Shown in pieces: positions 4,069 to 63,269 of a DNA stretch of 64,000 bases. Location of the stretch: assembly GCA_020629155.1 (NCBI GenBank), contig JAHDDW010000001.1, positions 346,454-410,453 of the forward strand, in the 5' to 3' direction. Each line of letters starts with the position of its first letter. The stretch's first letter is position 1. This DNA is from Acidimicrobiales bacterium (GTDB taxonomy: Bacteria > Actinomycetota > Acidimicrobiia > Acidimicrobiales > SZUA-35). The notes under the pieces were generated by a model, which saw only the letters and a program-made list of their open reading frames with translations, made no database searches and was not told where the DNA came from. Position numbers and translations under genes: made by a program.

Positions 4069-4368
4069 CTACCCTTTAAGCAAATCTGCTTCAGACACAT
4101 CGATACTGCGACGGTTTCTATAGATCAACAAAACAATTGCCAAACCAACACCGACCTCGGCAGCGGCGACAGCAATAATAAACAGCGCAAACACCTGGCC
4201 AGACAAATCTTGATGATAGGCACCAAAGGCGATCAGATTAATATTGACAGCATTCAAAATAAGCTCGATCGATAACAGCACAAGCACACCGTTTTTGCGT
4301 GTCAAGACACCGTACACGCCGATAGAAAAAAGGATCGCAGCAAAGAATAAGAATTGGTTTAAGAACAT
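4069..4368 (-). CDS. nuoK: NADH-quinone oxidoreductase subunit K
   Basis: This is a 99-residue, three-helix membrane subunit of complex I. The sequence has the expected glutamate-containing helices (SIELILNAVNINLIAF and IAVAAAEVGVGLAIVLL). I chose the ATG at 4368 because a GGAGG ribosome-binding site lies 5 bases upstream and the protein then has the family length. An open frame extends upstream to 4515, but it only reads through the repeat array and does not resemble NuoK. NuoK closely precedes nuoL. Its separation from nuoJ by about 316 bases is unusual, because these genes normally abut. Confidence 0.95.
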   Translation of the reverse strand: MFLNQFLFFAAILFSIGVYGVLTRKNGVLVLLSIELILNAVNINLIAFGAYHQDLSGQVFALFIIAVAAAEVGVGLAIVLLIYRNRRSIDVSEADLLKG

Positions 4369-4386
4369 AAGAACCTCCGTGCATAG

Positions 4387-4683
4387 TCTGCACCCAACGC
4401 CCGAGCCATCAGCTGCGTGCCAGCACCCCAAGCGCAGCGGAAACAATCCACCAAACCACCCAAACAGAGACCCACCAAAAGCTGCGTGCCAACGCGCCGA
4501 GCGCAGCGGAAACAATCCACCAAACCACCCAAACAGAGACCCGCCAAAAGCTGCGTGCTAACGCGCCGAGCGCAGCGGAAATAACCTGCTGAAACGTTTG
4601 AACAGAACCCTGCTAAGAGCTGCGTGCCAACGCCCTGAGCGGAGCGGAAATACCGTGGGTATGTATAATTAAAAAACATACCC
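4387..4683 (-). repeat. 69-bp tandem repeat array with terminal hairpin between nuoJ and nuoK
   Basis: Three full 69-bp units (4411–4479, 4480–4548, 4549–4617), plus a partial unit at each end, fill this gap. Units 1 and 2 are nearly identical and unit 3 is diverged. Each contains the core GCTGCGTGCCAACGC…GAGCGCAGCGG. At the nuoJ side lies a hairpin with 8-bp arms (4657–4664 GGGTATGT and 4676–4683 ACATACCC) and an 11-base loop. Read on the minus strand the order is hairpin, core, second-hairpin-like segment, then repeated core units. The same elements recur singly at 5256, 28899 and 40350. Because 69 is divisible by three, the minus strand stays open across the array. Confidence 0.9.
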
Positions 4684-4684
4684 A

Positions 4685-5278
4685 TCAATCTTTCCTCGCA
4701 ACGACGACTGCGCCTATTAGTGCTGCAAGTAGCAGCACAGAAAGCGCTTCAAAAGGAACAATAAAGGTGCTAAAAATTTCGCCTGAAACTTCGCTAGTGC
4801 GCTGCGGAGCCATATCGTCTGGCATAGTTTTCGAGCCGAAATACTCCCACAGTGAATACCCCATAACAGCAGCCATCGCCGTGGCGACAAGCGCACCGAG
4901 CCATTTGTGGTCATAGTCAAGGTTGTCTTCTTTGCCGATTTGAGCACGTGTCAACATAACACCAAAGAGCATCAACACCATAACGGCACCAAGATAGACC
5001 ATAACTTGGGTTGCAGCAGCAAACTCGGCCCCTAACACAATATAGGTTGCGGCAACCGACGAAAGTACAACCAGAAGATACAACGCTGCGTGAACAACAT
5101 TTTTGGTTGTCACCATTTTGAGTGCAGCGGCAACCGCCACGGCAGCGACCACATAGAAAAAACCGTTTGCTATCCACTCGCCTGTTTCACTCAACGGCGT
5201 GTTTTCAGCAGCCAAAGAAAGTAAGTTCCCTAGAATCACTTTGGCACCTTCTTTCGGCGATGTCTGACGACTGTACAT
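4685..5278 (-). CDS. nuoJ: NADH-quinone oxidoreductase subunit J
   Basis: NuoJ is a five-helix membrane subunit of complex I. The typical segment AATQVMVYLGAVMVLMLFGVMLT is present in mid-protein, and the C-terminal helix ends in VVVARKD. The start is ambiguous. ATG at 5278 gives 197 residues but lies in repeat-derived DNA. The GTG at 5239 gives 184 residues, has an AGAAGG-like site upstream, and is where homology to NuoJ would begin. The GTG sits in a 23-bp sequence that is repeated at the nuoI stop, so in the ancestor the nuoI TGA and the nuoJ GTG probably overlapped as GTGA. Confidence 0.94.
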   Translation of the reverse strand: MYSRQTSPKEGAKVILGNLLSLAAENTPLSETGEWIANGFFYVVAAVAVAAALKMVTTKNVVHAALYLLVVLSSVAATYIVLGAEFAAATQVMVYLGAVMVLMLFGVMLTRAQIGKEDNLDYDHKWLGALVATAMAAVMGYSLWEYFGSKTMPDDMAPQRTSEVSGEIFSTFIVPFEALSVLLLAALIGAVVVARKD

Positions 5279-56273: not shown

Positions 56274-57275
56274 GTGGCTACTGAAACTACACATGCAATC
56301 TCGGTGATTATCCCTACGCTTGATGAAGCAAATCATCTTGGCACATTACTAGAAGATATTGCTGAACAAAGCGTGCAAGCAGACGAGGTAATCATCATCG
56401 ACGGCGGGTCTAAAGATGCTACTCGCATCATCGCCAAATCGAATCCAAAACTTAAAACACGAATTTTTCTTAACCGCCAGAAACGAGTCCCTTATGCTTT
56501 GAACATAGGTTTAGCTGCTGCGCGAGGCCAACTGATTATCCGCATCGACGCTCATGCACGTGTCAACCCTAAATATATTGAAACCATCGCTAAGAATTTC
56601 GCTGACAAACCAAACCTGGGCGGTGTCGGCGGGATTAAACAAGCACATGGCAAAACGAAAACTGGCCAGATTATAGCCAAGGTTTTGTCGTCGCGAGTTG
56701 CTGTCGGCGGCTCGGCCTACCACTATGCGATGGAGAGCCAATACGTCGACCATATCCCATTCGGTGCGTACCCTAAATTTGTTTTAGAGCAACTGAGCGG
56801 CTGGGATGAAACCTTTCTCACCAATCAGGACTATGAGTTAGACTATCGCATCAGACAAAGCGGCAAAAAAATCCTCCTTGACCCAGAAGCGGTAATCACC
56901 TGGAACAGCCGCGAAAGTGTCGGCAAACTGTTCCATCAATATCACCGCTATGGACAGGGCAAGGCTGCTGTTGTGCGGAAGCATCCTCAAAGTGCTAAAC
57001 CCCGCCATTTGTTGCCAACTATTTTAGTTCTCGGCCTAGTCACAGCTTTGACTTTTAGCGCTTTTGTCTCGCCGTGGTTTGCTTTAGCCCCATTACCTTA
57101 CCTAAGTTTGATTTGGGCGCTCACCAGCAAAATTCCGTTACTTGGCTTGCGTCAGAGACTAACAGCCGCCAGCGCAATTGCGGCAATGCACACAGGCTAC
57201 GGCAGCGGCTTCATCCGCTACAGCCTCGCCAGCATATTCTTTCGCCAACCAAAAATATCTCCCAGCCGCATGTAA
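56274..57275 (+). CDS. ExoA-like glycosyltransferase, family 2 (GT1 of this locus)
   Basis: The 333-residue protein has a GT-A domain (ISVIIPTLDEA near residue 10, IIIDGGSKDATR, then IRIDAHARVNPKY with the D-x-H metal motif) and a C-terminal pair of hydrophobic helices, as in ExoA/WcaA-type enzymes of exopolysaccharide assembly. The sugar is unknown. The GTG at 56274 is preferred because GGTGG stands 8 bases upstream. Two pieces of its 3′ part (56959–57036 and 57227–57285) recur at 61827–61962, so the end of the gene was duplicated. Confidence 0.85.
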   Translation: MATETTHAISVIIPTLDEANHLGTLLEDIAEQSVQADEVIIIDGGSKDATRIIAKSNPKLKTRIFLNRQKRVPYALNIGLAAARGQLIIRIDAHARVNPKYIETIAKNFADKPNLGGVGGIKQAHGKTKTGQIIAKVLSSRVAVGGSAYHYAMESQYVDHIPFGAYPKFVLEQLSGWDETFLTNQDYELDYRIRQSGKKILLDPEAVITWNSRESVGKLFHQYHRYGQGKAAVVRKHPQSAKPRHLLPTILVLGLVTALTFSAFVSPWFALAPLPYLSLIWALTSKIPLLGLRQRLTAASAIAAMHTGYGSGFIRYSLASIFFRQPKISPSRM

Positions 57276-57324
57276 CACTAAAAACTGAAGACACTTCAGG
57301 TGCCTAAACAACTAGACTACAGAA

Positions 57325-58338
57325 ATGGCATCTCTAAACTCACCCATCGAGCCAGTAAGAGTTTACGTCGATATAAACATTCTCTATAAGATGTGCATTC
57401 TGCATGCACGCGTCGGAGTTAGTGACGAAAGAATCCCAGAAGGTTTCGAGAACTTTTACGAATTTTCTACATCTAACAGGGAAGGGCAACCTTTCCAGTT
57501 TGTCGTTGCTGGCGCTGTTGAAACTATGGTTCGTTACAACATACGTCTTGGTGATAAATTTAGACCTTTACGAAACAATATCGAACATTTCTTTTTATTT
57601 TTAGAAGAAAGTGGCTGGGAATTGACCGCCGAACAAGTTTTTTCAAAAAGGGAGATTGAGAAAATTCAGATAAATGATCGAGAAGATGCTATCCGAATAC
57701 TAGAAGCACAAAGCTTACAAACTCCGATTCTCGTCACGTTAGATAAAAACTTACAGAAAACACGAGACAAAACAGAAACCAACTTCATTTCACCATTACC
57801 TTTAAACCCTGATCAACTTATGGCTACAAACTTCTATGCCTTTGCTTCGCTTCTCGCTCAGAACCAAGGCGATATAGATAAAACCCTCCAGTTTTTAACG
57901 ACTGGCGACTTCATCGACACTCTGACGTATGGTTCATTGCTAGCAGAACCTTATAACTTATCAGATACATTCCTAAAAGGCATTCGTAAAATTTTTGGAG
58001 AACAGGCTCACGATCCTTTACTTGGACAGACTTTTTACTTTCTTACAGTACACGATAAACCAGTCACCAAAAAAGATATCGCTCAACGATTCGGGCTTGA
58101 CCTTACTGATTGGTCAGCTAGTGACCGGATTAACTTGACGCTAGACACGCTTGAAAGACAGGGTTTTCTTTCGCCTTTTAAAAGTCATCTACAAGGTAAG
58201 GAAATACTTTTTACTCTCTCGATCCAACCACCTACAACTGATCCAGCCAGACCTTTTCGATATTTTACTACAAGCCAACCGTCCGGGAAAACCGAGGTCC
58301 AAGGCTCATCATCATCGGCTAGTAAAGCTGGTCATTGA
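57325..58338 (+). CDS. PIN-domain protein with winged-helix C-terminus (first of two paralogues)
   Basis: The 337-residue protein has a PIN nuclease fold at residues 10–160, with D16 (VRVYVDINILY), E66 (GAVETM), D121 (NDREDAIRILEAQ) and D140 (ILVTLDKNL) in the expected places for the metal-binding acidic tetrad. A linker follows, then a winged-helix-like C-terminal domain (about 215–300: IRKIFGEQAHDPLLGQ, TKKDIAQRFGLD, LDTLERQGFLSPFKSHLQGK). It is paralogous to the next gene over both regions. A ctgaag-aca-cttcag palindrome lies 26 bases upstream at 57285–57299. The nuclease substrate is unknown. Confidence 0.72.
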   Translation: MASLNSPIEPVRVYVDINILYKMCILHARVGVSDERIPEGFENFYEFSTSNREGQPFQFVVAGAVETMVRYNIRLGDKFRPLRNNIEHFFLFLEESGWELTAEQVFSKREIEKIQINDREDAIRILEAQSLQTPILVTLDKNLQKTRDKTETNFISPLPLNPDQLMATNFYAFASLLAQNQGDIDKTLQFLTTGDFIDTLTYGSLLAEPYNLSDTFLKGIRKIFGEQAHDPLLGQTFYFLTVHDKPVTKKDIAQRFGLDLTDWSASDRINLTLDTLERQGFLSPFKSHLQGKEILFTLSIQPPTTDPARPFRYFTTSQPSGKTEVQGSSSSASKAGH

Positions 58339-58445
58339 TTCCATAGAGCACTGCAAGATTCATGCATCTTATACAATAGCAAACAAGCATGTCTATAATG
58401 GCGAGAGGTGAAACTCGAAAGCTTCAGCTTTAGGAGAATATTAAG

Positions 58446-61298
58446 ATGTCAACACAAAATTATGCAGTCGGAACTTATTTTGATGCAAATGTTCTCTATC
58501 AATTGCTTCAACATTTCGCAGAAGATACAATCGACTCTCAAATTCCTAGCGTGCTTTATCCTCTTGTCACTGACAAACTAGGTGAACAAGACTTCGGTGT
58601 GGCCATCACCCAAGAACTACGAGATATGGTCGCTAGAGGAACACAAACCATCGAGAAATACCTCCCCTTACAACAACATGTTGACTCCTTTTTTGATTAT
58701 TTAGAGTCATGTGGATGGAAAATCGCCGCAACGGCTGAACCAGATCGCGTAACGATAGATGCATATACCGCCTTTACTCAAGACCGGGAAGACGCGTATC
58801 GACTATTTGAAGCTCAAGAACTTAACTGTGTTCTTGGAGTTACTTTCGATTCGGAATTCAAACGAGCTAGAGGGTACGGAAAAGTGCCTAATTTCGCAGC
58901 TCCAATATTTCTAGATCCTAATGAATTCGTCTCGTTTAACTTCAAGGCTTTCAGCGCAATGCTTCAGCAAGTAGACGACGTAGAAAGGGCACTTGCGGAT
59001 TGGACCATAGGTGATATTCTCAGCAACTTTACCTTTCCTCCTAAAGGTGTACAAACAAACGATCCGCGTTTCGCAAACCAGCCACAGGTTCTCTTTGTGA
59101 CGCCACAAGGCCAACGTGCCCTAGTCCAAACGAAACGTCCCAACGGTGAAAGAACAACTGTTCCTTCACAAACAGCGGCTGACTGTGCCAAAGAAACCCT
59201 GAAACGTCTAAGAAGATACGAAGGTAAATGGCCAGCCCTAGTTGCCGTTGCAGACGAGCTACTTAATGACCCCGATTGGAAACAAGAATTTGAGAGCGAA
59301 CTACTTAACAAGAAGCCTGAAGGAGCACCTGATGACTGGCTGCAGGTAGAGTCTCTCACTGAAGTCCAAGCCACCTTATTAGATACCGTCGAATTCCAGC
59401 GCTACATAAATGATGCTGAACAAGTTCAGCACTCTCACTCCCCTAAACCAGATCAAACAAAGCAACCTCGACCAGAAGAACCGTTCAAGATAAAATTTGA
59501 CCCTTCTTACGACGCAACTTTAAGCCTAGAAGTGCTTTCATCAGGCGCAAAAGTCTCAATTTCGCATTACGCAGGCCAAAATGCTCGACAATTTAAGCAG
59601 GTCCTCTTTCTAGATAAAACTCCACAAGGAGTAGCTGCTGCGGTTAAAAAACAAATTGAAGAAGCGAAAGCAACTATCAAAAAGAACTTTCTTACAAACA
59701 GGAACGCCGCCACGTCATTTCTTCTCTACGTGCCTAGACATGATCAGTGGGATGCAGCTTTCATCAACGAACTAGAGGGTATCCTGGCGCATTATCTAGA
59801 AATAGTTATACAGCAAAAAGATGCGAAGCGGCCGCAACGACAAGCTCACGCTGAACTGGCCAATCCGTACAATCTAGAAAAAACCATTGGGCCTGGTTTT
59901 GAACAGTGGGTAGAAGACACTTTTGGAGAAGCTGCTAAAGATCCACTGCTTGCCCAAGCAATTGCTCACTTTGCTGTTGCTGGTCTTGAGAAAGCAACCG
60001 CTGGAGAGCTCAACCGTCACTTTCAACTCGGCCAGAAACCTGGCGGTGACTGGAGCCGAACAACGCAGGTATTGGAAGTAGCCATGCAGAAGAATGGACT
60101 GGTTTCTTCCTACCAAAAACACTTAAAAAACAATTTAGGCGGAGGCAGAAATATCTTCTACACACTTGAAGACCTGAGACAGAGGATTGCCAAGCATCTA
60201 CCAGAAAGAACAACTGTTCCATCACAAACAGTGGCTGATGTTGCAGCGACAACTACTAGACCACAACGACGCACAAATCCATTGTTACAGGCTGAGCTAG
60301 GTCTCAATGCACCACCTTTGTTTGCAGAAGCGCTTAGTCTGATAGCTTTAAAGAACCTTGATGCTATCACCAACACGTGGCTTAGGGACAATCTTCCACT
60401 AGACCATGAAGGAGCTAAAGCATTACTAGATTATATGCAGGAAAATTTTCTTGTAGATGGGCCTAAAGGATACAAATACAGTGCTAACTTTACACGCGAA
60501 GATTTCCTTGCCATAGAGTCAGATTCTCTAGACTCGCTTGTGAAGAAATCTAATCCTTCTGGCACTAACCACAACAGACTATTACCTGCTGCAACTGCTG
60601 TTGTAGTTAAAAAAAGAAGTTCCGACAAGCAACAAGATATAACCCCTGAGTGGCTACAAGAAACTTTGAATGTCAGTTCTGAAGAAGCAAACCGTTGTCA
60701 CACAGAGTTGTGCAACACTGCGATACTAGTTGAAGCAGACGGGAAACACCGTGTGAATTTAACCACTTATGGACTAAAAAATCGCAAGTGGCCTGATCCT
60801 ACAGCCAAACCTAAAAGTCAGTTCGAAGAAGAACCTGCCGCTGTAGCAAATCAGACTCCTGCTGTTACGGAGAGACAACAAGAGAGAAGTACTAAAAGTA
60901 CTGGATACCAGAAAGGGCGACAAGTAACTGGCGATTACCTTGAGGCTTTAGCTGCCTTCCAAAAAGATCACCCGTCAGAAGATGTAACAAAAGTTACTGA
61001 CTTGATTAGGCGAGAACATGATCTAGCTAGACGAAGGCAAGAAATAGACCAGATGCCTGCAGGCATAAAAAAATTTGAAGCGTCAGCAAATTTTAATCGC
61101 GATCAAGAGGGTCTCGAATTGTTATCTAGAAAACTAGGCACGTCTGCGAGCTATGTCCAGCTGAAAGAGACGCAACCAAAATTTGAACAGTATGGAGGAC
61201 CTTATGCAAAACAATTTAAACCAACTGATTTTATAAGCATGGGGGTACCTGAATCTTCTCTTCAAAAAGCCGTACCAGCAGAAGCCTATTCATCGTGA
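58446..61298 (+). CDS. Large PIN-domain protein with several winged helices and C-terminal repeat
   Basis: The 950-residue protein starts with a PIN domain whose acidic tetrad D13, E57, D116 and D135 (TYFDANVLY, TQELRDMV, QDREDAYRLFEAQ, VTFDSEF) matches the smaller paralogue. A middle domain (about 345–470) is unassigned. A paralogous winged helix covers about 485–575 (GFEQWVEDTFGEAAKDPLLAQ). Another, at about 622–680 (LFAEALSLIALKNLDAITNT to YMQENFLVDGPKGY), resembles the γ winged helix of FtsK. A third lies at about 728–785. The C-terminus is helical and ends in a DFISMGVPESSLQKA motif shared with the next gene. AGGAG precedes the ATG. No membrane helix is seen. Function unknown. Confidence 0.72.
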   Translation: MSTQNYAVGTYFDANVLYQLLQHFAEDTIDSQIPSVLYPLVTDKLGEQDFGVAITQELRDMVARGTQTIEKYLPLQQHVDSFFDYLESCGWKIAATAEPDRVTIDAYTAFTQDREDAYRLFEAQELNCVLGVTFDSEFKRARGYGKVPNFAAPIFLDPNEFVSFNFKAFSAMLQQVDDVERALADWTIGDILSNFTFPPKGVQTNDPRFANQPQVLFVTPQGQRALVQTKRPNGERTTVPSQTAADCAKETLKRLRRYEGKWPALVAVADELLNDPDWKQEFESELLNKKPEGAPDDWLQVESLTEVQATLLDTVEFQRYINDAEQVQHSHSPKPDQTKQPRPEEPFKIKFDPSYDATLSLEVLSSGAKVSISHYAGQNARQFKQVLFLDKTPQGVAAAVKKQIEEAKATIKKNFLTNRNAATSFLLYVPRHDQWDAAFINELEGILAHYLEIVIQQKDAKRPQRQAHAELANPYNLEKTIGPGFEQWVEDTFGEAAKDPLLAQAIAHFAVAGLEKATAGELNRHFQLGQKPGGDWSRTTQVLEVAMQKNGLVSSYQKHLKNNLGGGRNIFYTLEDLRQRIAKHLPERTTVPSQTVADVAATTTRPQRRTNPLLQAELGLNAPPLFAEALSLIALKNLDAITNTWLRDNLPLDHEGAKALLDYMQENFLVDGPKGYKYSANFTREDFLAIESDSLDSLVKKSNPSGTNHNRLLPAATAVVVKKRSSDKQQDITPEWLQETLNVSSEEANRCHTELCNTAILVEADGKHRVNLTTYGLKNRKWPDPTAKPKSQFEEEPAAVANQTPAVTERQQERSTKSTGYQKGRQVTGDYLEALAAFQKDHPSEDVTKVTDLIRREHDLARRRQEIDQMPAGIKKFEASANFNRDQEGLELLSRKLGTSASYVQLKETQPKFEQYGGPYAKQFKPTDFISMGVPESSLQKAVPAEAYSS

Positions 61299-61687
61299 AT
61301 CCCAGACAACAAGTTGATGTCTACCTAAAGCTACTGGATCATCGAGATAGCGGCGCCAGTATACCTGAAGAAATTTTTGTATTTGCTGAAGATAATTTTG
61401 TAATGAATGCACAAACCTACTTAAAATCAATTGATACCAGATATGGGTATCAGGCTTTTGCCGAGATGGGTGTCTCTGAAGAAGTCTTAGAAAGAGCGGG
61501 CGTTAAAGATCAAAGTTTGAAGTCTTTGGAGAAAGATTTTATTGCGTATGCAAAACCTTATCTAGACAGCCAAGGGCTAACGTATGCTGATTTAATCCAT
61601 GTGGGTGTGCCAGCAGACGTATTGTTTAGAGCAGGGCTACGACCAAAAACATCAGCGCTTTTTGAGGACCTTCCATCCACTGACTAG
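61295..61687 (+). CDS. Small protein with GVP-type repeats, third gene of the PIN operon
   Basis: The GTG start overlaps the stop of the large PIN gene (GTGA), so the pair is coupled. The 130 residues contain two similar segments: QAFAEMGVSEEVLERAGV (about 53–70) and YADLIHVGVPADVLFRAGL (about 97–115). The C-terminus of the large PIN protein has a third version (DFISMGVPESSLQKAV). This suggests a binding partner, possibly an antitoxin, but no catalytic residues are visible. The stop codon lies in DNA duplicated from the far end of the GT2 gene at 62392. Confidence 0.7.
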   Translation: MNPRQQVDVYLKLLDHRDSGASIPEEIFVFAEDNFVMNAQTYLKSIDTRYGYQAFAEMGVSEEVLERAGVKDQSLKSLEKDFIAYAKPYLDSQGLTYADLIHVGVPADVLFRAGLRPKTSALFEDLPSTD

Positions 61688-61962
61688 GCTTACTTGCCTC
61701 GGAGTTTTTTAACGAGGTTCGGGGCGACTAGTCTTGCAGCTAGTTTAAGGTTTCGTGGTTGGCGCATCGAACAGCTTGCACGCATGTGGTTAAGCGCACC
61801 AACAACATTGCCTGAACGTCGGATCTGCAAGGCTGCTGTTGTGCGGAAGCATCCTCAAAGTGCTAAACCCCGCCATTTTTTGCCAACTATTTTAGTTCTT
61901 GGCCGCCAGCATATTCTTTCGCCAACCAAAAATATCTCCCAGCCGCATGTAACACTAAAAAC
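61679..61962. pseudogene. Chimeric fragments of the two flanking glycosyltransferase genes
   Basis: Positions 61679–61829 are identical to 62392–62542, the 3′ end of the minus-strand GT gene with some bases beyond its stop. Positions 61827–61904 match 56959–57036 of the plus-strand GT with two mismatches. Positions 61904–61962 match 57227–57285, with 190 bases between missing. The pieces meet at a 3-base overlap (GCA). These are remnants, not a gene. They fill most of the gap 61688–62010. Confidence 0.92.
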
Positions 61963-62010
61963 AAACAAGTGTTTGTACTACTTGGAGAAATCTTTGCTAC
62001 CCTTACAGTA

Positions 62011-62277
62011 ATGACTGACTCTCTTCATACCAGCAAAACATGGTCCTCACTCAACACAGCAGAGCAAAGCGCCTATATCAAAAAGCATTATGTTGCAGAA
62101 GTTACTGACCTTCCAGACGACTTAAAAGAAGCAGCGTTACATAATGAACAAGTACTTATCAATGAGCTTCTCTTAGCAGATAAGACCTTAACGCCACAAC
62201 AACAAAAATATATCAAGGAGCGAAACGCTCAACGATTCAATCCCGACGGCACCGAAAAACAAACTTCGACAAATTGA
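62011..62277 (+). CDS. Small hydrophilic protein of the second cargo
   Basis: The 88-residue protein is Gln-, Glu- and Lys-rich, mostly helical, and has no recognised family. It begins a short way after the duplicated GT1 end. Its stop overlaps a TTG start or a −1 frame continuing to 62396, so the natural product may be longer. The longer in-frame start at 61969 only reads through junk between the GT1 remnant and the gene. Its role is unknown. Confidence 0.55.
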   Translation: MTDSLHTSKTWSSLNTAEQSAYIKKHYVAEVTDLPDDLKEAALHNEQVLINELLLADKTLTPQQQKYIKERNAQRFNPDGTEKQTSTN

Positions 62278-62396
62278 ACAGGCTACCTGTACGTATTTCA
62301 TCCGAAGTCGACGCCTCGATTTCTCAACTTTTCCCTGAAGATACTTCGGGAGAACACGACCTTCCTTCTCAACACCAGTTTGTTACCACTGACTGA
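62274..62396 (+). CDS. Short open frame, possible continuation or remnant in the second cargo
   Basis: A 40-codon frame from TTG at 62274, overlapping the previous stop (TTGA), ends RFVTTD-like (SQHQFVTTD) directly at the GT2 duplication. The wording is protein-like (ISSEVDASISQLFPEDTSG). It could be a coupled gene or the displaced C-terminus of the preceding frame after a one-base shift. Both cargoes end with a Thr-Asp codon pair at the same junction. Confidence 0.35.
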   Translation: MNRLPVRISSEVDASISQLFPEDTSGEHDLPSQHQFVTTD

Positions 62397-62402
62397 CTAG
62401 GC

Positions 62403-63269
62403 TTACTTGCCTCGGAGTTTTTTAACGAGGTTCGGGGCGACTAGTCTTGCAGCTAGTTTAAGGTTTCGTGGTTGGCGCATCGAACAGCTTGCACGCATGT
62501 GGTTAAGCGCACCAACAACATTGCCTGAACGTCGGATCTGCATAGCAATAAATCTATCAACAGGCGCTAGTGCGCCTTTCCCGTCGAATGCCACGCCATA
62601 TTTTGCACGATAGGCAGCCAACTCTGCGACCGAACCAGACTGGTCGCATGTCATCTGCGCATCGTGCACGACATACCGCACACCAATTTCACCAGAAGAA
62701 ACAGGTTCGCCTTTTTGCGCGAACCGGGTCCACAAATCCCAATCGGCAAACATAGAAAACTGATCATCAAACATGCCCTGAGACACAAACAATTCTTTAT
62801 AGGCCAACACTGATGAACAACCACCAGGAATAGGGTTGCCGCCATAGATAGTGTCATCAATTGGTTCTGCCGGCCCGTAGTTTGTGAACAAAACGGTCAT
62901 TGATTCATCCACTCGCTGCGTCGGCGCATAGCACCATAGCGCATCGCTGTTTTCTAACGCCTCGACTTGCAACGCAACCTTTGTCGAAAGCCACAAGTCG
63001 TCATCATCACACACCGCGACATAGTGCCCTTTGGCTGCTTCGATAGCACTGTTGCGAGCATTTGCTACACCGCGCGATGAAACATGATGAACATGACGCA
63101 CCCGCTCATCGCTATGATTTTCTAAAAACGACTGAGTTTCATCAGTCGAGCCGTCATTACAAACAACCACTTCAAGATTACTGTAGGTTTGATCCAAAAT
63201 AGTATCTAGTGTTGTTGTGAGCTTTTCAACTCTATTTTTTGTTGGAATAATTACTGAAACAAGCTTCAC
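62403..63269 (-). CDS. Glycosyltransferase family 2 (GT2 of this locus)
   Basis: The 288-residue GT-A enzyme has VSVIIPTKNRVEKL, VVCNDGSTDETQ and the metal-binding VAVCDDDDLWLS. Its sugar donor and acceptor are unknown. It overlaps the upstream minus-strand GT gene by 4 bases. The final 140 bases and the bases past its stop are duplicated at 61679. It runs towards the PIN operon, so the island sits between two convergent glycosyltransferase genes. Confidence 0.88.
   Translation of the reverse strand: MKLVSVIIPTKNRVEKLTTTLDTILDQTYSNLEVVVCNDGSTDETQSFLENHSDERVRHVHHVSSRGVANARNSAIEAAKGHYVAVCDDDDLWLSTKVALQVEALENSDALWCYAPTQRVDESMTVLFTNYGPAEPIDDTIYGGNPIPGGCSSVLAYKELFVSQGMFDDQFSMFADWDLWTRFAQKGEPVSSGEIGVRYVVHDAQMTCDQSGSVAELAAYRAKYGVAFDGKGALAPVDRFIAMQIRRSGNVVGALNHMRASCSMRQPRNLKLAARLVAPNLVKKLRGK

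Follow-up and report, generated by a model that had tools for sequence, protein, structure and literature searches.

The question raised by this locus is what two large, paralogous proteins and a small third one, encoded side by side in the genome of an Acidimicrobiales bacterium, may do together, and how their genes came to be where they are. The window, which is the whole stretch of 64,000 nucleotides that was analysed, contains the three genes at the following positions:

57325-58338, forward strand: gene 1 (P0001), 337 aa; PIN-like domain, FtsK-gamma-like winged helix and low-complexity tail (predicted).
58446-61298, forward strand: gene 2 (P0002), 950 aa; PIN-like domain, insert of about 270 aa, winged helices and C-terminal region (predicted).
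61295-61687, forward strand: gene 3 (P0003), 130 aa; two tandem domain copies, corresponding to the C-terminus of an order-wide protein.

All three ORFs are intact at these coordinates, as found in the ORF check of the window. The GTGA coupling of genes 2 and 3, pointed out in the initial annotation, is an exact overlap at 61295-61298, in which the GTG start codon of gene 3 begins at 61295 and shares bases with the TGA stop codon of gene 2 (61296-61298). The three genes are likely to form a single operon; this earlier proposal stands when considering the coupling of genes 2 and 3, the only pair that is translationally coupled, but it is weakened by the 107 bp that separate genes 1 and 2 and by the promoter scans at the locus, which stay at chance level. 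No RNA families are found at the locus and no tRNA genes in the window. The net charges of the products of genes 1, 2 and 3 are -8, -19 and -8, respectively.

The surroundings of the genes can be divided into the following segments, where module A is the segment holding the three genes and module B is a second, short cargo:

56959-57285, forward strand: left flank L, being the 3' end of a family-2 glycosyltransferase gene (Pfam) plus 10 bp; identified from repeats D2 and D3.
57286-61678, forward strand: module A, with its edges set by direct repeats D1-D3 and with aberrant codon usage.
61679-61829, forward strand: extra copy of R, 151 bp, 100% identical to 62392-62542.
61827-61962, forward strand: extra copy of L (L'), 97% identical over 78 bp and 100% over 59 bp, with 190 bp missing.
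61963-62391, forward strand: module B, with ORFs of 88 aa (62011-62277) and 40 aa (62274-62396).
62392-62542, reverse strand: right flank R, being the 3' end of a convergent glycosyltransferase gene (62403-63269).

The overall structure is a tandem of flank, A, flank, flank, B and flank (L-A-R-L'-B-R), in which the joint between R and L' has a 3-bp microhomology (GCA) and the two copies of L differ at 2 of 78 bp. In module B, the 40-aa ORF has a TTG start codon that overlaps the stop codon of the 88-aa ORF, and no homologue of the latter is found in 148 related genomes. The left edges of modules A and B fall on one and the same base of L and their right edges on one and the same base of R, so that the two have the look of interchangeable contents of a single slot. 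They open with different inverted repeats (57285-57299 and 61963-61980) beside the same T-run of L, and each of these repeats forms, together with the T-run, a terminator-like hairpin on the minus strand.

The GC3 of genes 1-3 is 0.33-0.34, or 0.33-0.37 when the gene of module B is included, and the codon usage of these four genes correlates with that of the neighbours at 0.04-0.36, compared with 0.42-0.91 for the other genes of the window. The description of the locus as an inserted island is borne out by this foreign codon usage and by the long direct repeats of both flanks that surround the island, and module A is best read as a recent, horizontal acquisition. The neighbours are glycosyltransferase and surface-polysaccharide genes (Pfam), and no defence genes are seen among them. 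In the host, the two flanking glycosyltransferase genes point towards each other, and the cargo slot separates their 3' ends. In a related genus (locus L112, G011:C32, 2571-5018), the likely counterparts of these two genes are adjacent and divergent; the left counterpart is 55% identical, as obtained from the search, and the right counterpart is judged from its ORF only.

It is possible that this flank structure was generated on uptake of DNA from another strain, with homology being used on one side and illegitimate joining on the other side, a mechanism that would correspond to homology-facilitated illegitimate recombination. The main alternative is that the tandem structure is a chimera, made when two strains, one carrying A and the other carrying B, were assembled together in this metagenome-assembled genome, the genes themselves being real. 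The genome is in 59 contigs and has an estimated contamination of 2.8%, and the 2 differences between the L copies are as two strains would give; however, the microhomology at the R-L' joint and the 190-bp deletion are unlike a simple graph collapse, and a chimera is considered to be unlikely.

The two large proteins were described initially as paralogues, and this is confirmed for two blocks of sequence. The N-terminal block (residues 11-202 of the gene 1 product and 8-197 of the gene 2 product) has 30% identity (E 1e-23), and the second block (residues 206-298 and 471-574) has 31% identity (E 3e-9). In the gene 2 product, the two blocks are about 270 residues apart, and about 375 residues follow the second one. 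The DREDA-x-R-x-x-EAQ motif and the DPLL motif are indeed common to both proteins. The following features concern the N-terminal block and the insert:

57325-57804, forward strand: PIN-like domain of gene 1, residues 1-160, with D16, D118/E120/D121 and D140; predicted by profile-profile alignment.
58446-58910, forward strand: PIN-like domain of gene 2, residues 1-155, with D13, D113/E115/D116 and D135; predicted from paralogy, the profile test and residue pairing.
59508-59825, forward strand: alpha/beta domain in the gene 2 insert, residues ~355-460, with the order strands-helix-strand-helix in a low-confidence AF2 model.

For the insert domain, the AF2 pLDDT is roughly 40-58, and there is no family match in Pfam, NCBIfam or PADLOC. 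A 35-bp direct repeat (94% identical; 59148-59182 and 60204-60238) within gene 2 encodes ERTTVPSQT(A/V)AD twice, and its copies flank the insert and the winged-helix block; it may have been left by a shuffling of domains within the gene.

The acidic tetrad of PIN domains that had been assigned to both proteins is retained in three of its positions, since the paralogue alignment pairs D16 with D13, D121 with D116 and D140 with D135, but the fourth pair, E66 and E57, is not found at the same column: E66 of gene 1 is aligned with R59, and E57 of gene 2 with A64. Each protein thus carries a second acidic residue close to the expected place, but the two stand in different columns. When the two-row paralogue alignment is compared by hhalign with a reference alignment of 15 PF01850 proteins from related genomes, the global score is 11.9, which is reached by none of 200 column shuffles (mean 3.0, sd 2.0, maximum 10.3), and D16, D121 and D140 are placed on the acidic positions of the PIN domain. 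The local alignment is weaker, its score being reached by 2 of 200 shuffles, and its best match is the DREDA…VTxD stretch. The PIN-like assignment is favoured by the global alignment, which beats all 200 shuffles, but not by the library searches: even with E values of up to 10 allowed, no PIN family model of Pfam, NCBIfam, PHROGs or PADLOC is matched, and a profile search of the PDB gives no match. The AlphaFold models, calculated from 3-row alignments each, have pLDDT values of 36 and 39 and are unusable. As the global alignment is significant, and considering these other outcomes, the N-terminal domain of both proteins is referred to as PIN-like, an assignment that is supported by the profile comparison. 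These domains may have nuclease activity.

The second block and the region following it contain the winged helices:

57940-58218, forward strand: FtsK-gamma-like winged helix of gene 1, residues 206-298; hhalign, jointly with the gene 2 domain.
59856-60167, forward strand: FtsK-gamma-like winged helix of gene 2, residues 471-574; paralogy and hhalign.
60264-60488, forward strand: candidate second winged helix of gene 2, residues ~607-681; marginal.

In the FtsK translocase, the gamma domain is the winged helix that reads DNA motifs. The DPLL block of both proteins, run jointly against 30 FtsK gamma sequences from related genomes (hhalign), has a score of 23.8 (E 5.7e-4), whereas the best of the shuffles reaches 14.5 and none of 150 is as good; an unrelated control stays at shuffle level. 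The library threshold of PF09397 is not reached by this block in hmmscan or in the genome scan. The initial annotation had reported a shared winged helix of a DNA-binding type joined to the PIN-like domain, and this is supported and can be named more closely, as the comparison suggests that it is FtsK-gamma-like. For the candidate second winged helix of gene 2, 6 of 150 shuffles are as good in the comparison with FtsK gamma, and phrog_6576 matches residues 646-775 with E 0.006; a third winged helix in this protein is unsupported by the FtsK gamma comparison.

Features can now be given for the third gene. By profile comparison (E 2.4e-19), its product consists of two tandem copies of a domain of about 45 residues, which is the C-terminus of a protein of about 140 aa occurring in most genomes of the order. 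A weak likeness to the same protein is seen at the end of gene 2:

61385-61510, forward strand: domain copy 1 of gene 3, residues 31-72 (E 5e-8).
61511-61645, forward strand: domain copy 2 of gene 3, residues 73-117 (E 1e-12).
60879-61271, forward strand: C-terminal region of gene 2, residues 812-942, with weak likeness to the ~140-aa protein.

The ~140-aa family is found in 76 of the 99 genomes sampled at the level of the order and in 20 of the 149 that cover the phylum, usually once per genome (loci of the order: L015-L021 and L030-L049), and the host has its own copy at G000:C42:48546-48956. It has no Pfam or NCBIfam name, as judged by profile search. Its members are basic and have a KPKRGRKRT stretch, a coiled coil and a C-terminal GVP domain; the gene 3 product is acidic and is without the basic KPKRGRKRT part and the coiled coil. 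In both loci inspected (L015 and L016, by ORF reading) the gene adjoins purS/purQ. The family also occurs on three viral contigs, and on one of these, the IMG/VR contig L117, the member at 4272-4694 is near two tyrosine-recombinase-like genes. The C-terminus of the gene 2 product scores 12.3 bits against this family, the best of 1000 shuffles scoring 9.6; it may share the layout of the family, and full membership is suggestive only. An assignment of the gene 3 domain as an Lsr2-type DNA-binding domain was rejected as unsupported, its score being equal to that of shuffles when compared with only two Lsr2 rows.

Outside this genome, relatives of the large proteins are not found in 197 relatives, in 295 genomes of the phylum or, by profile, in 297 genomes of the order (these sets overlap), nor by tblastn in plasmids or phages. 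Pattern scans, which reach only close relatives, find none in a collection of 84,980 species or, in five scans for the large proteins or their domains, in viral contigs. Two viral contigs that contain the DREDA pattern were discarded as homologues, since the encoded proteins are unrelated. A second locus with the three genes is not found in the genomes, viral contigs, plasmids and phages searched. The co-occurrence survey that had been suggested earlier therefore gives no other locus within the reach of these searches, an outcome that had been named beforehand as refuting the proposed system but that for a singleton is uninformative, and module A is best read as lineage-restricted, or narrowly distributed.

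Our preferred reading, which is tentative, is that module A is an acquired cassette of DNA-tethered PIN-like nucleases with a small partner, probably serving defence or conflict. The winged helices would park the proteins on particular DNA, and the PIN domains would cut nucleic acid at or near this DNA, being either nascent RNA or single-stranded DNA. The gene 3 product, whose domain also occurs in the order-wide host protein and perhaps in the gene 2 tail, would regulate or recruit the gene 2 enzyme. The benefit would probably lie in defence against other genetic elements or in conflict with them. Genes in recently gained, narrowly distributed cassettes most commonly serve defence or conflict, and we infer both this role and the partner role of gene 3. 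Against DNA tethering, both large proteins are acidic, which is atypical for DNA-binding proteins as a whole. The role in defence or as a toxin–antitoxin module that was put forward initially gains no positive evidence from the searches: PADLOC, PHROG, Pfam and NCBIfam give no match of weight for the three genes, glycosyltransferase genes and no defence genes are found next to them, and no other locus is seen in the sets searched.

When considering the toxin–antitoxin reading by itself, one of the PIN proteins would be a growth-inhibiting RNase, gene 3 would provide the antidote and the winged helices would autoregulate the promoter. The PIN domain is the fold of the VapC toxins, the same genome has at least 12 other PIN genes, and gene 3 is small, acidic (-8) and translationally coupled to gene 2. 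However, the antitoxin gene usually comes first and here the small gene is last, the toxins are usually of about 130 aa whereas these enzymes have 337 and 950 aa, gene 3 matches no antitoxin family in Pfam, NCBIfam or PADLOC, and two nuclease paralogues per module are unusual, so this reading is improbable. It is equally doubtful that the genes are fast-evolving accessory remnants of a phage or plasmid, which have no host function and came to lie in a hypervariable polysaccharide locus by chance. Such an origin is in agreement with the lack of homologues, the foreign codon usage, the unrelated cargo B in the same slot and the occurrence of the gene 3 domain family on viral contigs, once beside two integrases, but not with the fact that all three ORFs are long and intact and that acidic residues are conserved, with the absence of integrase, capsid and replication genes from the module, or with the finding that no relative is present in the phages, plasmids and viral contigs searched. 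A link to chromosome organisation or segregation, via FtsK-like motif reading and mimicry of the order-wide, basic, putative nucleoid protein and with PIN domains that may be degenerate and structural, would suit the FtsK-gamma-like winged helix and the gene 3 domain shared with the basic protein having KPKRGRKRT, yet it is quite unlikely, because the cassette is confined to one genome among those searched and because each copy has retained the acidic residues D16, D118/E120/D121 and D140, which argues for activity.

Returning to the reading as a nuclease cassette, an elaborated version of it, which is very unlikely in all its parts together, is that the twin PIN nucleases are aimed by the FtsK-gamma-like domains at motifs in incoming or segregating DNA, are licensed by the gene 3 product as an adaptor and are exchanged between A and B contents of the slot by homology-assisted illegitimate recombination, which would be a new kind of conflict system. 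If active, the proteins would join a PIN nuclease to an FtsK-like DNA-reading module, a combination absent from the family libraries and literature searched, and they would be accompanied by an accessory gene tied to a lineage-wide protein without a name. In addition, the flank structure has the appearance of an exchange of cargo at a chromosomal slot that was caught at an intermediate stage.

When compared with known systems, no anti-phage system model of PADLOC is matched, and partial similarities are seen with other groups of proteins. The order of the acidic motifs (the D of the first strand, the D before VTxD and the D of VTxD) is that of the PIN/VapC nucleases (PF01850), but the domains studied here have no Pfam match, long insertions, the DREDA-x-R-x-x-EAQ signature and a C-terminal winged helix, in proteins of 337 and 950 aa as compared with about 130 aa. 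The arrangement of the type II VapBC modules, where a small antitoxin of a known DNA-binding family is found beside a PIN toxin of about 130 aa, is not matched. The cassette winged helix has the DPLL..Q, T..el...F and LE..G..S pattern of FtsK gamma (PF09397), whereas its PYNL and HL..G..I.(Y/F)TL elements are additional and, unlike FtsK, the cassette proteins have no translocase motor. The TPR-GreA/B-C-PIN conflict systems, for which defence has been proposed, combine a divergent PIN domain with a domain that binds a nucleic-acid machine in one multidomain protein (PMC8195603). The partner domains of the cassette proteins are different, with no TPR or GreA/B-C domain being found, and there is one locus, but the divergent PIN-like domain within a multidomain protein is a feature that is shared with these systems.
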